From Streptacidiphilus sp. P02-A3a (GTDB taxonomy: Bacteria > Actinomycetota > Actinomycetes > Streptomycetales > Streptomycetaceae), in the NCBI RefSeq assembly GCF_014084105.1, contig NZ_CP048289.1:7821922-7885921 (forward strand): a DNA stretch of 64,000 bases, read 5' to 3'. The notes beneath the pieces are model-generated. The model did not search any database and had not been told where the DNA came from. It was given only the letters and a program-made list of their open reading frames with translations. The translations under genes and the position numbers were made by a program. Below are positions 40,628 through 63,669 of this stretch, piece by piece (position 1 is the stretch's first letter; every line of letters begins with the position of its first letter).

Positions 40628-40641
40628 CGACTGCTGCTGTG

Positions 40642-40713
40642 CTGGGGTACCAGGACTCGAACCTAGACTAAATGAACCAGAATCACTCGTGCTGCCAATT
40701 ACACCATACCCCA
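40642..40713 (-). tRNA. tRNA-Gln (anticodon CTG)
   Basis: 72 nt. The minus strand starts TGGGGTATGGTGTAATTGGC, anticodon loop TTCTGGT gives CTG, T-arm GGTTCGAGTCC, acceptor 3' strand TACCCCA. Identical to the copy at 41282-41353. Promoter-distal member of the cluster. Confidence 0.96.
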
Positions 40714-40831
40714 TTGCCCGCACAAACCGGCCTGCCGGTGAACGGTGCGAGAAGAAGCCTACCTGACCTGCGGGCCCGCGCGCGCCAGGGCGCGGAACGC
40801 GCTGCGGGAAAAGCCGGTGGCCCGGAAAGCG

Positions 40832-40863
40832 GTCAGGCCCCCGGCCGGAGCCGGGGGCCTGAC
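40832..40863 (-). terminator. Hairpin between tRNA-Glu and the distal tRNA-Gln
   Basis: Perfect 14-bp stem GTCAGGCCCCCGGC/GCCGGGGGCCTGAC with four-base loop in the 163-bp spacer. It may be a terminator or a processing signal and suggests the distal tRNA-Gln has its own promoter. Confidence 0.5.
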
Positions 40864-40876
40864 GTCGCTACTCGCG

Positions 40877-40949
40877 TACCCCCGACCGGATTCGAACCGG
40901 CGCTACTGCCGTGAGAGGGCAGCGTGCTAGGCCGCTACACAACGGGGGC
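40877..40949 (-). tRNA. tRNA-Glu (anticodon CTC)
   Basis: 73 nt. Minus strand begins GCCCCCGTTGTGTAGCGGCC, anticodon CTC in TGCCCTCTCACGG, T-arm GGTTCGAATCC. One of three identical copies in the cluster. Confidence 0.96.
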
Positions 40950-41016
40950 GAGCTTGGTGATCCTACGTCATCGCCTCGGAGAATGATCGTTCCGATGGCA
41001 AGGGTTTTGGATCTGG

Positions 41017-41089
41017 TACCCCCGACCGGATTCGAACCGGCGCTACTGCCGTGAGAGGGCAGCGTGCTAGGCCGCTACACAACGGGGGC
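41017..41089 (-). tRNA. tRNA-Glu (anticodon CTC)
   Basis: Second identical 73-nt copy; spacer to the next copy (41090-41157) is AT-richer than average. Confidence 0.96.
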
Positions 41090-41157
41090 TTGTATCTCTA
41101 TTTCCTGCGGTACTGCTGGTACTGCTCATACTGCTCGTTCACTGCTCGGGTAATGCG

Positions 41158-41230
41158 TACCCCCGACCGGATTCGAACCGGCGCTACTGCCGTGAGAGGG
41201 CAGCGTGCTAGGCCGCTACACAACGGGGGC
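41158..41230 (-). tRNA. tRNA-Glu (anticodon CTC)
   Basis: Third identical 73-nt copy, same anticodon CTC and acceptor stem. Confidence 0.96.
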
Positions 41231-41281
41231 ATCGAGAGTATTCTCTCGACTGTGCAAGCCTCGTTCTGGCGAGGACTTACG

Positions 41282-41353
41282 CTGGGGTACCAGGACTCGA
41301 ACCTAGACTAAATGAACCAGAATCACTCGTGCTGCCAATTACACCATACCCCA
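41282..41353 (-). tRNA. tRNA-Gln (anticodon CTG)
   Basis: 72 nt, identical to 40642-40713. It is the first tRNA in transcription order: Gln, Glu, Glu, Glu, Gln. Confidence 0.96.
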
Positions 41354-60666: not shown

Positions 60667-60680
60667 CAGCAGGCAGTTTG

Positions 60681-60720
60681 TTCAGGGTCCCTCGCCTCGG
60701 CGAGAGGCCCTGAACGTTTT
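60681..60720 (+). terminator. Terminator after tRNA-Lys
   Basis: TTCAGGG/CCCTGAA outer stem and CTCGCC/GGCGAG inner stem with single bulges, followed by CGTTTT. It separates the tRNA from the convergent mycosin gene. Confidence 0.85.
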
Positions 60721-60741: not shown

Positions 60742-61890
60742 TCAGACCCGCCGCCGGTGGCGGCGCAGCAGCGCCAGCCCGAGGCCGATGCAGCCGACGG
60801 ACAGCAGGGCCCCGACCGGCAGCACCCAGACGCCGAGGTGGCCGGGCTTCCTCCGGTCGGCGGACACCGCGAGCGTCGGCACCGGCGCCAACGGGTCCGT
60901 CGCCCGCGCCAACGGCCCCTGCGCGGGCCCCGCCGGGATGCTGTCGGTCAACGCCTCGCGCGGCCGCGCGACGCCGTAGCCGTAGTGCGGGTCCGGAGTG
61001 GTCTGCCCGGGCTTGGCATCGGGGTCGATGGCGGACTTGATCAGCCGGTTGATGACCTGCCCGGCAGTGAGCCCCGGAAACCTCGCCCGAACCAGCGCGG
61101 CGATGGCAGAGACGTAGGCGGTGGCACCGCTGGTGCCGTTGCCCAAGGCGTACTGCGTGTCCGTGCCGCTGTCATCGCCGAGAACGTTGCTGCCCGGCCC
61201 AGTGAGGACGATATGCGGGCCGTAGTCAGAGCCTGACCAGATACTGCCGTCCTGGTTCGCACCACCGACGTCCACAACCCCGGGGAAGGACGCGGGGTAG
61301 TTGCTCACCTCGGCGCCGTCATTGCCGGCGGCAGCGACCAGCACGACGTTGTGTGCCTCTGCGTAGGCGACAGCGGACTGTTCGATGGCACTGGGGGTGA
61401 CGCCCGCAATCGACATGTTGATGACACCGACGCCGCGACTCACCGCGTAGCGAATGGCCCCTGCGATCTCCTGATCGTAGTTCGCATCCTGGAGATCAAC
61501 GACAAGGGGCAGCAGTGTGACTCCCGGTGCCAGCCCCCTGATGCCGTCCGAGTCACCGGGCCCATGCCCATGCCCCGCGATAAGGCTGGCCATCATCGTT
61601 CCGTGGCCAGCATTGGCGGCTTCGTCGTAGCTGGCGGGGGCGAAGTCCTTCCCTGGCAGGAACTGCCCGGTCAGGTCCACATGGGTCGTACGGAAGCCAG
61701 TGTCGATGACGGCGACAACCTGTCCCTTGCCGGTCGTGACGGGCCAGATCTTCTGCGCGGCACCGTAGGCCTGCAATGGCCACTGCTTGTTCCGCGCCGC
61801 ATCGGCGTGCGCGGCCGGTGCCATCGCCGTCAGCAGCACTCCCAGCGTGGCCATCGCACCGGCGAAGCGCCATGTCCTTACACACCGCAT
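60742..61890 (-). CDS. mycP: Type VII secretion-associated serine protease (mycosin)
   Basis: 382 residues. Signal peptide (about 1-29), subtilisin-type S8 domain with catalytic D63 (VIDTG), H96 (GHGTMMAS) and S254 (GNGTSGATAYVSA), oxyanion N190, and a C-terminal transmembrane helix (about 352-372) followed by Arg-rich cytosolic end. This is the mycosin architecture. ATG at 61890 follows GGAG. Last gene of a three-gene operon with two ESX-like proteins, without the usual Ecc components. Confidence 0.88.
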   Translation of the reverse strand: MRCVRTWRFAGAMATLGVLLTAMAPAAHADAARNKQWPLQAYGAAQKIWPVTTGKGQVVAVIDTGFRTTHVDLTGQFLPGKDFAPASYDEAANAGHGTMMASLIAGHGHGPGDSDGIRGLAPGVTLLPLVVDLQDANYDQEIAGAIRYAVSRGVGVINMSIAGVTPSAIEQSAVAYAEAHNVVLVAAAGNDGAEVSNYPASFPGVVDVGGANQDGSIWSGSDYGPHIVLTGPGSNVLGDDSGTDTQYALGNGTSGATAYVSAIAALVRARFPGLTAGQVINRLIKSAIDPDAKPGQTTPDPHYGYGVARPREALTDSIPAGPAQGPLARATDPLAPVPTLAVSADRRKPGHLGVWVLPVGALLSVGCIGLGLALLRRHRRRV

Positions 61891-61919
61891 GCGCTGATTC
61901 TCCAAGAGATGACGCTATG

Positions 61920-63320
61920 TCACATGATGACTGGCGGATTGACGGTGACACCGGAGTTCCAGTTCTCCGGGTCCTCCACCAGGTAGTGCGGGCGAGGACG
62001 CCGCTTACGCTTCCTGTCCTGGCTGCTGAGGCCGCCCGGGAACCCGCCCATCCCCATCGCCTCCTCGGCAGCAGTTGTGGCTTCAGCCCCAGGTTGGTCC
62101 GCCTCCTCATTGCCGACCAGACCGCCGCCGGTCCTGCTGCTCGCCGAACTCGCACCGAGGTGTTCTGCTGCTCCGTCAAAGCCCCCAGCGAACGAGGAGG
62201 TACCTCCAGTCGCACCCTGGGTACCGCTGAACCCGACCGCCGCACCGCCAAGGCTCAGACCCGAAGCGAAATGACCATGGCCGGTAGCACCACCGATACC
62301 AGCGACCAGTGGGAGCGGGATACTCATCCTCTCGCCCGTGCTGTCTGCTCTGCCACCAGAGCCAAGGCCTCCGGAGATCCCAGTGATGGTGGTGCTCGGC
62401 CCCGGAGTGGTCGGTAGCCGCTCCCCGCCGGTGATCCCCTCGCCCGGGGTAGCACCACCGACAGCCACCCCCGGGCCTTGCCCGGGGGTGATCCCGTAAG
62501 CCACGCTGCCCTTGCCCGGCGCACCGACCTGAGTCAGGTGCACCGCACCCGCCATGCCAGGGCTAGTGACCGGCTCGCTGTCGGGCGTTCCGACGGGGTC
62601 ATGGGTGATCGTCGCGGATGGAGGCGGCCAGACCGAGAAGGCCTCTACCGGGTCGCGTGGTGCCTTCCCGATGGTCGTCCCCGCCCTGTTGTACTCGCCC
62701 TCCAGGGTCTGCATCACCACGATCGCCTGCTGGTGGCGCTCCTCCGTCGCGGAGAGTTGGCCGCCGTCGAGGTCCAGGGCTACCTGGCGGCTGATGCCTG
62801 ACCGGAGGTCGGCGTTGAACTGCTGGTCGCCGGTCTCGCTGGTGGCCTTGCGGGTGATCTTCTGCCACTCGCTCGGTGCCTTCGGCATGTTCAGCTTCGC
62901 GGCCGTCAGGGCCGTCGCCGCCGCCGAGACTCCGCTGCCGGCGTGTGCCGCGTACTGCGCGCCGTTGCCCAGGGCCTCGTGTAACTGCTGGGCGCGGGCG
63001 GCGAAGCCGTCCGCCGCTGCGCCGGTCCAGTGCTCCAGCGCGGCCGAGGTGTGGGTGCGGAAGTCGGCCTGGGCCGCCAGCAGGGCCTCGTTGACGGCGG
63101 TCCAGTGGTCGGCGACGGCGGTGAGCGCGGACGGGTCGGCGTGCTCGATCATCGCCCGCAGGCCGTCCAGTCCGCCCACGTCGGCGGCGGTGAAGTCGGT
63201 GGTGTAGCCGGTCGGTCCCGCGTGCCCGCCGCGGGTCTTCGCCAGGATGTCCGCCCGGGTCTGCTGTACCCGCTGTTCCCGAGCCTGCTGAAGCTGCCGG
63301 GAATCGTCGATCGCTCCCAT
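61920..63320 (-). CDS. PPE/WXG-like putative type VII secretion substrate
   Basis: 466 residues. The first 200 are helical, with W-x-G (HWTG at about 97-100) in AALEHWTGAAADGFAARAQQL, resembling PPE/WXG100-like proteins. A Gly/Pro/Ser/Thr-rich region (about 240-420) follows. The end is a basic cluster DRKRKRRPRP then HYLVEDPENWNSG, a tail seen in other actinobacterial ESX-linked proteins as far as I recall. ATG at 63320 with GGGGG. No signal peptide, as expected for such substrates. Confidence 0.75.
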   Translation of the reverse strand: MGAIDDSRQLQQAREQRVQQTRADILAKTRGGHAGPTGYTTDFTAADVGGLDGLRAMIEHADPSALTAVADHWTAVNEALLAAQADFRTHTSAALEHWTGAAADGFAARAQQLHEALGNGAQYAAHAGSGVSAAATALTAAKLNMPKAPSEWQKITRKATSETGDQQFNADLRSGISRQVALDLDGGQLSATEERHQQAIVVMQTLEGEYNRAGTTIGKAPRDPVEAFSVWPPPSATITHDPVGTPDSEPVTSPGMAGAVHLTQVGAPGKGSVAYGITPGQGPGVAVGGATPGEGITGGERLPTTPGPSTTITGISGGLGSGGRADSTGERMSIPLPLVAGIGGATGHGHFASGLSLGGAAVGFSGTQGATGGTSSFAGGFDGAAEHLGASSASSRTGGGLVGNEEADQPGAEATTAAEEAMGMGGFPGGLSSQDRKRKRRPRPHYLVEDPENWNSGVTVNPPVIM

Positions 63321-63333
63321 CACCGCCCCCGTT

Positions 63334-63669
63334 TCATCCGAACATGTTCTGCGCGGTCTGGTCCTCAAGGTCGGTGTAGTTGGCCGCGACCTGCTTCGCC
63401 TGACCGCCGTACTCCTCGATCAGGCTCTTCAACTGGCTGATCATCTCCGCGATCCAGGACTGCATCGCGTCGTGCGTGCCCAACAGGCCGGTCGCGCCCG
63501 CGAAGCCGGTGCCGAGGGTTCCCCCGCCGATGGTGGTCCGGTAGGCCGCGCGGTCGGCGGTCGGGCCGAGCTCGGCGGCGACCGCGTTGAGCTTCGCCAC
63601 GGTCTGTTCCAGAGCGCTCACGTCGACCTGGTAGCCGCCGCCCTGCTGCGGCGCCGCGTGCCTGCTCAT
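63334..63669 (-). CDS. Small ESX-like protein with YxxxE secretion motif
   Basis: 111 residues, two predicted helices around a central Gly-rich turn, tryptophan at about 72 (SWIAEMI), and the canonical type VII signal YTDLE at residues 98-102 near the C-terminus. It probably pairs with the PPE-like protein encoded 13 bp downstream. ATG at 63669 with GGGGGAG. Confidence 0.75.
   Translation of the reverse strand: MSRHAAPQQGGGYQVDVSALEQTVAKLNAVAAELGPTADRAAYRTTIGGGTLGTGFAGATGLLGTHDAMQSWIAEMISQLKSLIEEYGGQAKQVAANYTDLEDQTAQNMFG

Follow-up and report, generated by a model that had tools for sequence, protein, structure and literature searches.

What does a mycosin gene do when it is encoded away from the ESX secretion machinery? 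We addressed this question for a three-gene operon in a stretch of 64,000 nucleotides (henceforth the window) from Streptacidiphilus sp. P02-A3a, a soil actinobacterium. In our best explanation, which we give a probability of about 0.5, the operon encodes a satellite PE/PPE-like type VII secretion system (T7SS) substrate pair together with its own mycosin, which reads a conserved C-terminal tail on the longer partner.

The operon and its genomic place

Reading of the open reading frames (ORFs) places all three genes on the minus strand. They are a small PE/Esx-like gene of 111 aa, with a predicted helical hairpin (63334..63669), a PPE/WXG-like gene of 466 aa from its ATG (61920..63320) and a gene for a mycosin-like subtilase (S8) of 382 aa from its ATG (60742..61890), the last two supported by profile matches. 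The coordinates confirm the co-oriented arrangement described in the initial annotation, with 13 bp between the small and the PPE-like gene and 29 bp between the latter and the mycosin gene. A GGAG lies shortly upstream of the mycosin ATG; if translation began at the TTG at 61905, the protein would have 387 aa. The gap that separates the mycosin gene's end from a tRNA-Lys gene contains a strong hairpin and probable terminator (60680..60715; z -4.84 for the 71-base stretch, with 0 of 200 shuffles folding as well); a pattern scan for promoters and terminators gave no matches and did not pick up this hairpin either. The three-gene set was found again in relatives and is therefore no chance arrangement. 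In two relatives the operon occupies the identical place, between serA and a chorismate mutase gene, and a second module of like design is present elsewhere in the same genome.

We searched the window ORFs with phmmer, using the genome's own proteins as queries, and found none of EccB, EccC, EccD, EccE, EsxA or EsxB, which agrees, as regards EccB-E, with the earlier statement that the window carries no EccA-E component. The search for eccC elsewhere in the genome, which had been proposed as a check, retrieved one locus at which EccC, EccD, EccB, EccE, EsxA and EsxB all exceed their NCBIfam cut-offs. This ESX locus is complete, includes another mycosin and is ~158 kb distant from the operon; given also the lack of EccB-E in the window, the window mycosin is encoded outside an ESX locus. 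EspG (PF14011) was not found in the genome over its cut-off (best 14.9 bits versus 27).

A predicted PE-PPE-like pair

The helical domain of the 466-aa protein (residues 1-217; 62670..63320, minus strand) has a predicted fold closest to mycobacterial PPE proteins. The first nine Foldseek matches of its AlphaFold model were PPE41, PPE15 and PPE4 chains with a probability of 1.00, at E values of 1.6e-3 to 0.13, none under 0.001. PPE entries also took VIA ranks 1-6 (Z 10.3-11.0, rmsd 2.9-4.1, 152-160 aligned), followed by EsxA-type chains (Z 9.7-9.0); the best unrelated match reached 8.8. A Z of 10-11 is only suggestive for helical bundles, but with PPE entries in all six top ranks the predicted model supports a PPE helical fold. 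At the sequence level, EsxA matches the profile of the 466-aa protein (E 2.6e-8). The protein scores below the Pfam PPE cut-off (23.7 versus 26 bits), its inspected sequence contains no Pro-Pro-Glu motif near the N-terminus, and neither it nor the 111-aa protein reaches the WXG100 cut-off. A W-x-G motif (W98-T-G100) sits at a helical turn of the helical domain, and 88 of 98 PPE-like proteins have W-x-G where it would be expected, versus 100 of 530 controls. The motif and the predicted fold uphold the original PPE/WXG-like label. Beyond the bundle, the protein continues into a Gly-rich linker at about residues 242-435 (62016..62597, minus strand), predicted to be disordered with pLDDT under 50 for residues 243-336 and 338-435.

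The 111-aa protein is predicted to form a helical hairpin (helices 18-43 and 59-110). Its VIA list has unrelated helical proteins on top (Z 9.5) and Esx chains from rank 21, a sequence search of its profile against solved structures gave no match under E 0.24, and inspection of the sequences found no PE (Pro-Glu) motif near the N-terminus. Near its end is YTDLE (residues 98-102; 63364..63378, minus strand), which fits the type VII YxxxD/E signal and bears out the YxxxE reported before. In an alignment of the window protein with 36 of 67 small ORFs, Y/F-xxx-D/E falls at a single column in all 37 rows (33 Tyr, 4 Phe). A small ORF was called upstream of 79 of the 98 tail genes of at least 300 aa; within their final 70 residues, 64 of these 79 carry YxxxD/E (67 if Y or F is allowed), versus 136 of 1718 control ORFs. 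The hallmark of a substrate pair, W-x-G on the large partner and YxxxD/E on the small one, is thus present, and the predicted helical folds of both proteins favor a T7SS substrate pair over the self-contained cell-surface system that the initial annotation offered as an alternative.

A divergent mycosin-like protease

The catalytic residues D63, H96, N190 and S254 are all present, so the mycosin is intact as first described. It matches Peptidase_S8 (E 8.7e-43), and its sequence matches in the PDB include MycP1 and mycosin-5. We term it a divergent, mycosin-like protease because it misses the NCBIfam TIGR03921 cut-off (248.3 versus 278.75 bits); the mycosin of the genome's second module passes it (282.3 bits). 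From hydropathy only, the N-terminus has a hydrophobic segment (15-residue mean 1.81) and the C-terminus a putative membrane segment (60766..60837, minus strand; 19-residue maximum 2.21). Among 90 mycosins linked to a tail gene, the catalytic D, H, N and S are intact in all and the C-terminal segment exceeds 1.6, again by hydropathy only, in 82.

A conserved tail at the end of the PPE-like protein

The initial annotation proposed the HYLVEDPENW tail and the adjacent basic cluster of the PPE-like protein as candidate recognition or cleavage sites. The tail gained support as a candidate recognition site, being conserved and tracking one mycosin clade, and the basic cluster (residues 436-443; 61992..62015, minus strand) did not: its last Arg alone is widely conserved, and we rejected it as a general cleavage signal because many relatives carry mixed or acidic residues there. 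HYLVEDPENW belongs to a longer tail, R-P-D-YLVEDEETW...N-P-x-V-I-E, which in the window spans residues 444-466 (PHYLVEDPENWNSGVTVNPPVIM; 61923..61991, minus strand) and was delimited by conservation in relatives; its core YLVEDPENW is at 61959-61985 on the same strand. The Arg three residues ahead of the Tyr and the tail beyond the Tyr are conserved in relatives, and the Y, E and D of YLVED are among the most fixed residues. The tail alignment (the window and 49 locus rows, drawn from the listed loci plus L228) shows 98% conservation of the core, a figure that is inflated because loci were picked by the pattern YLVED-x-E-x-W. A fairer figure is that 26 of 30 loci found with the whole PPE-like protein, the window's own counted, have a [YW]L-type tail (the others are L024, L044, L046 and L047).

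Of 82 tail ORFs, three continue for 31 to 39 further residues (L280, an 85-aa ORF, L288 and L295), and the remainder end at most one residue past the tail. Three proteins of same-genus genomes carry tandem tail units (L161, L174, L175). The literature searched, open-licence PubMed Central only, contained no description of the tail or of such modules, which is no proof of absence.

The tail tracks one mycosin clade

We assessed the linkage in 120 genomes, defining clade mycosins by at least 357 bits to the clade profile and neighborhood by a distance of 2.5 kb; the cut was set just above the first third-class match (355 bits), and some tail-linked mycosins score lower. A tail match lies within 2.5 kb of 104 of 118 clade mycosins, and a clade mycosin within 2.5 kb of 96 of 108 strong tails. 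The 14 clade mycosins lacking a tail match comprise three with a divergent tail (L302, L303, L305), two that keep the PxVIE end alone (L307, L309), one at a contig end (L304) and eight with no tail seen. Among the 12 strong tails lacking a clade mycosin of at least 357 bits, three are accompanied by one that is fragmentary or scores lower (G007, G030, G064). Across 80 loci, a mycosin starts -300 to 400 bp downstream of 77 of the 82 tail ORFs; two have a mycosin only upstream and three have none. One relative (G073) has 10 tail matches and 10 clade-profile mycosins, with three EccCa matches among those listed.

A tree of 131 mycosins, which left out identical copies and mycosins covering under 80% of the profile, separates the two kinds: all 90 tail-linked mycosins are on one side of a branch with SH-aLRT 100 and all 24 tail-less EccC-locus mycosins on the other. 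The loci in the tree were picked by tail or by EccC, which favors such a split; the profile search for mycosins was not so picked. Of 20 mycosins from loci with neither tail match nor EccC, 17 form a third clade of their own. It is this tree position that is evidence for the link; the finding of no tail in 20 of 20 such loci is none, because they were chosen away from tail matches. Three tail-less loci (L216, L217, L218) are on the tail-linked side. In ten fetched ESX loci, a tail gene and its mycosin occur alongside EccC and another mycosin, and the tracking persists where two mycosins share one ESX locus. Residue 305, in the aligned window slice, is D in 24 of 25 EccC-locus and 17 of 17 third-class mycosins and R in 52 of 90 tail-linked ones. 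We considered such clade-specific residues, a few charge switches, as a docking site and found them too weak.

The strong tails are mostly remote from the secretion machinery. Across the 120 genomes, 12 of 108 have a listed EccC place at a distance of 15 kb or less, and for 96 the EccC places compared are either over 15 kb away or on a different contig. The places compared are a subset of those listed; inspection by eye put none of the places omitted for tail-bearing genomes close to a strong tail. Both this distribution and the distant ESX locus fit the earlier suggestion that the operon is a satellite module for a type VII system encoded elsewhere. EccC co-occurrence was dropped as evidence for it: 72 of 72 tail-bearing genomes have an EccCa match, as do other sampled genomes of the same order, and because every sampled genome of the order has EccC, the test has no power.

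What may read the tail

The conservation and linkage suggest that the tail is a tag read by a protease or by the secretion machine. In our preferred model, the 111-aa and 466-aa proteins would form a PE-PPE-like helical heterodimer that is exported by a shared EccB-E machine encoded elsewhere in the genome, and the third gene would supply a dedicated, membrane-anchored mycosin facing outward. The disordered Gly-rich arm of the long partner would present the tail (YLVEDxExW...NPxVI), which the linked mycosin would bind, probably cutting nearby in the manner of MycP1 on EspB, whose C-terminal arm is cut. We consider it likely that the proteins are a T7SS substrate pair and that the distant ESX exports them; given that, reading of the tail by the operon's own mycosin is moderately favored.

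Alternatively, the tail may be an export or targeting signal read by EccC or a chaperone of the ESX machine, which the pair would need because it is encoded away from that machine; the mycosin would then be co-encoded for other reasons, such as pore capping. The fixed Y, E and D would suit such a signal, and YLVED fits the type VII YxxxD/E consensus. So would tails that occur apart from the clade mycosins. Of 34 weak tail matches, 20 are within 15 kb of EccC, among the EccC places compared; four of these belong to ordinary modules that include a clade mycosin (G018, G051, G063, G066), and the other 16 lack an adjacent clade mycosin. Some of the 16 are large WXG-type proteins (L316, L317) whose ESX loci hold another, lower-scoring mycosin. 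For six tails with a small partner no mycosin was found nearby (L151, L158, L163, L164, L169, L171), and for the first four, from genus g4, none was found in 7 kb downstream. Seven of the 14 clade mycosins with no tail match lie within 15 kb of EccC, three of them with a divergent tail. However, the small partner already carries YxxxD/E, the tail lies ~230 residues past the helical bundle across a disordered arm, and a pattern scan of ORFs in the genome's own ESX stretches (L015, L016) did not find it. The tail also follows one mycosin clade even where an ESX locus holds two. We consider an export signal rather unlikely as the explanation.

It is improbable, in our estimate, that the module is a plug-in specificity pair, in which the satellite's mycosin replaces the resident one as the ESX pore cap and admits only the pair with its own tail. 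If this were true, a single secretion machine would, through its dispersed modules, work as several dedicated ones. We give slightly less credence to a tail that fixes the pair, once exported, to the cell surface or within a multimer, with the mycosin trimming or releasing it or being a mere structural neighbor; display or assembly would be in keeping with the tandem tail units and the Gly-rich arm, but we recognized no known anchoring motif. That the operon is what remains of an ESX locus, decaying or without function, as the missing EccB-E and the faster divergence of the three genes than their flanks (71% versus 90% mean protein identity with the two relatives) might indicate, is very improbable given the intact reading frames and catalytic residues, the retained tail, the kept position in both relatives and the up to 10 copies in another genome.

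Comparison with known systems

The targets of mycosin cleavage are an old question. For about a hundred mycosins here, the neighboring gene encodes a candidate substrate, and these candidates have a short tail in common; the link is found in soil bacteria accessible to simple deletions. Passages of one account (PMC5082899) name EspB as the only substrate that had been identified for any mycosin by 2016, with processing by the mycosin that belongs to the same ESX system as EspB, and state that secretion in mycobacteria does not need the protease activity, a point against our preferred model. Like EspB/MycP1 of ESX-1, the operon would combine a PPE-like helical domain with a partner mycosin, and EspB structures are among the VIA fold matches of the 466-aa model (Z 7.5-8.2). 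EspB is described in part of PMC11217815 as a single chain containing both halves; in the operon two separate genes encode them, with no linkage to EccC and with a conserved tail.

The pairs PE25-PPE41, PE8-PPE15 and PE5-PPE4 share with the operon two partner genes, YxxxD/E on the small partner, and the PPE-like fold predicted here for the large one; the PE partner is described with a C-terminal type VII signal in a section of PMC11217815. Unlike them, the proteins here are without a PE or PPE motif and below the Pfam PPE cut-off, no EspG was found, and the mycosin is within the operon. WXG100 (EsxA/EsxB) pairs are also helical hairpins and EsxA matches the PPE-like profile, whereas the window proteins fall below the WXG100 cut-off and have a long arm and tail in addition. 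A 2006 study, in the part relevant here, reported PE/PPE proteins nowhere outside Mycobacterium (PMC1660551), and a passage of a 2016 study placed PE/PPE capture among mycolic-acid producers (PMC4791881). The PPE-like fold predicted in this work, by contrast, occurs among relatives of Streptomyces, Kitasatospora and Streptacidiphilus, which makes it relevant to how PE/PPE proteins arose.

A mycosin-like protease has been noted as the neighbor of a possible T7SS substrate, the toxin family Ntox38, in a passage of PMC3482391; that is a toxin system, and the passage mentions neither a PE/PPE-like pair nor a tail. Also related are the Streptomyces-family ESX loci with two mycosins: the ten loci above join the tail gene, both mycosins and EccC, whereas none of the EccC places compared lies 15 kb or less from the window copy. 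In S. coelicolor and S. scabies, ESX seems to have its role in sporulation and development, according to part of PMC8401907.

Gene content of the operon and its satellite position

The three genes all lie on the minus strand and encode a small protein of 111 aa (63334-63669), a PPE-like protein of 466 aa (61920-63320) and a mycosin of 382 aa counted from ATG (60742-61890). The ORF coordinates bear out the co-orientation and the intergenic gaps of 13 and 29 bp reported in the initial annotation. The mycosin gene product matched Peptidase_S8 in Pfam (8.7e-43), and its top NCBIfam match was the mycosin family TIGR03921 (248.3 bits vs a cut-off of 278.75). Pfam matches of the 466-aa protein to PPE and WXG100-type families, and all Pfam matches of the 111-aa protein, were weak and under the cut-off. 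The interval separating tRNA-Lys from the mycosin gene carries a strong hairpin (60680-60715), which could possibly terminate transcription on both strands. Five tRNA genes (Gln, Glu) cluster at 40641-41353.

Using the proteins of this genome as phmmer queries, we found no EccB, EccC, EccD, EccE, EsxA or EsxB among the window ORFs, which for EccB-E agrees with the earlier claim that the window holds no EccA-E component. The contig containing the window is 9.33 Mb long. We sought eccC elsewhere in the genome and found EccC encoded ~158 kb from the operon, surrounded by EccD, EccB, EccE, EsxA and EsxB, which exceed the NCBIfam cut-offs, and with a mycosin of 329 bits nearby. The genome encodes three strong mycosins: that of the ESX locus, that of the window and one at 8.47 Mb, the last being the final gene of a second small/PPE-like/mycosin set whose long protein ends in YLVEDGETWTSATSGANPAVIE. 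Given this second set and the single ESX locus, the genome has two satellites, one of them the window operon, encoded away from the ESX machine genes.

The closest named relatives of the window's copy of the module are in Streptacidiphilus. Two genomes of the genus (G013 and G007) carry the module at the same site, flanked by serA and the chorismate mutase gene; identities are 64-79% for the module proteins and 76-99% for the flank proteins. Mean identity over two same-genus relatives is 71% for the module proteins (60742-63669) vs 90% for the flanking amino-acid biosynthesis proteins.

Predicted folds of the putative partners

The model of the 466-aa protein, computed from 50 sequences, is helical over residues 1-217, mostly at high confidence, and disordered over ~243-435, with a low-confidence tail (the conserved C-terminal end). 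PPE chains took the top nine places in Foldseek, at a probability of 1.00 and with E values between 1.6e-3 and 0.13. On VIA re-alignment, PPE entries held ranks 1-6 with Z values of 10.3-11.0, a range (10-11) that unrelated folds can reach when the structures are helical bundles; EsxA-type chains followed, and the best unrelated chain had Z 8.8. What carries weight for the predicted PPE likeness is that the leaders are all PPE, together with an EsxA sequence-profile match.

The 111-aa protein was modelled as a two-helix hairpin. EsxA and PE8 led its Foldseek list, yet with E 1.2, and VIA placed unrelated helical proteins first (Z 9.5), Esx chains first appearing at rank 21 (8.3) and PE25 ranking 50th (7.3). 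On these scores the fold alone is no proof of kinship, and gene position and the YxxxD/E signal are better evidence for the identity of the small partner. The C-terminal type VII export signal is written as YxxxD/E. It occupied one column in all 37 aligned small proteins (the window protein and 36 of 67 small ORFs), with Tyr in 33 and Phe in four.

Distribution of the C-terminal tail

The whole PPE-like protein matched 31 of 120 genomes, counting its own, and the same kind of tail closed the matching protein in 26 of 30 returned loci, counting the window. A profile built from 23 tails matched 72 of the 120 genomes (E ≤ 0.01). In a class-wide sample at E 1e-5, it matched 17 of 296 genomes, comprising 16 of 28 same-family genomes (own genome counted) and 1 of 268 others, as read off a listing ordered nearest kin first. 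Barring inner copies of repeated units, 107 tail ORFs stop with the tail itself or a single residue past it. Three proteins from same-genus genomes (L161, L174 and L175) carry the arm-plus-tail unit twice in tandem, ~100 residues apart; their inner tail copy is not C-terminal. Two large WXG-type proteins in EccC-bearing neighbourhoods, L317:2916-5759 (947 aa) and L316:4414-6939 (841 aa), close with a related tail (WLAADEDVWGTDEGGAPAVIGR and similar), and the L317 protein contains NPDGS-type repeats.

Linkage of the tail to one mycosin clade

A profile built from 17 tail-linked mycosins gave 118 matches in the 120 genomes at or above the threshold of 357 bits. A tail (E ≤ 0.01) lay within 2.5 kb of 104 of these 118 clade mycosins, and a strong tail (1e-4) within the same distance of 100. 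Conversely, 96 of 108 strong tails had a clade mycosin no further than 2.5 kb away. Of the same 108, 12 were located 15 kb or less from one of the EccCa places used in the comparison. Among the 82 tail ORFs of a named set, a mycosin was directly downstream of 77, upstream only in two (rotated order) and absent for three; EccC was present in 2 of 80 loci of this set.

A quick tree built from 131 mycosins was divided into 100 and 31 rows by a single branch with SH-aLRT support of 100. The larger side comprised 90 tail-linked mycosins, six of the rotated kind and four adjoining a tail-linked mycosin, and the smaller side 24 tail-less EccC-locus mycosins and seven others, of which none immediately follows a tail gene. 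Since the presence of a tail or of EccC was what qualified a locus for the tree, it shows two distinct lineages and not the number of exceptions, which is addressed by the clade-profile search and the 2.5-kb counts. EccC, a tail gene and both mycosin kinds occur together in ten of the fetched loci. Asp, His, Asn and Ser were kept in 90/90 tail-linked mycosins and also in the other mycosin classes, and thus do not mark out the clade.

In some modules (L087, L096, L121, L148), two clade mycosins stand side by side. An order-level relative (G073; loci L098, L105, L110, L114, L116, L117, L118 and L141) has ten tail, ten tail-linked-mycosin-profile and three EccCa matches, and its L116 holds three tandem modules in ~11 kb.

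We added to the tree 20 mycosins picked for being near neither tail nor EccC, and 17 formed a separate, third class. In the five third-class loci read (L200, L205, L209, L212 and L219), the mycosin adjoins translation genes, which we take to be infC, rpmI and rplT, and no Ecc gene was found in these stretches. The mycosins of three tail-less loci (L216, L217 and L218) fell on the tail-linked side. Sixteen weak tails lay near EccC without a clade mycosin; the two such weak-tail loci that were read, L316 (G072) and L317 (G060), share their contig with a mycosin of ~205 bits, and so they too have a mycosin within ~20 kb. In one genus (g4), L151, L158 and L164 hold strong-tail PPE-like genes with no mycosin within 7 kb, preceded in L158 by a small gene; these genomes also have a clade mycosin and divergent-tail partner beside EccC.

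Proposed function and comparison with known systems

PE-PPE substrates are described as exported in helical pairs in which the PE partner bears the C-terminal signal, and the mycosin as capping the pore on its outer side (PMC11217815). The module encodes such a pair together with a mycosin and lacks a machine of its own, so the simplest reading is that the ESX encoded elsewhere in the genome would export the small/PPE-like pair. The linked mycosin may then read the tail of the long partner; the main argument is that, even within shared ESX loci, the tail tracks one mycosin clade rather than EccC. Against this stand tails lacking a clade mycosin, clade mycosins lacking a tail, and the weak tail-like ends that occur next to another kind of EccC locus, in some cases on large WXG-type proteins. 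A serious rival is that the tail would itself be an export signal: its YLVED matches YxxxD, and the clade tracking argues instead for reading by the mycosin.

The module is assembled from parts of known kinds. The literature searched contained no description of the conserved tail, of its association with one mycosin clade or of modules dispersed away from EccC. PE/PPE genes have been placed in Mycobacterium (PMC1660551) and in mycolic-acid producers (PMC4791881). The module proteins share the predicted fold of this family without its sequence motifs, and we therefore do not class them as members. Processing of EspB by MycP1 is established (PMC5082899), and to it we liken the module's disordered arm and conserved tail beside a dedicated protease.
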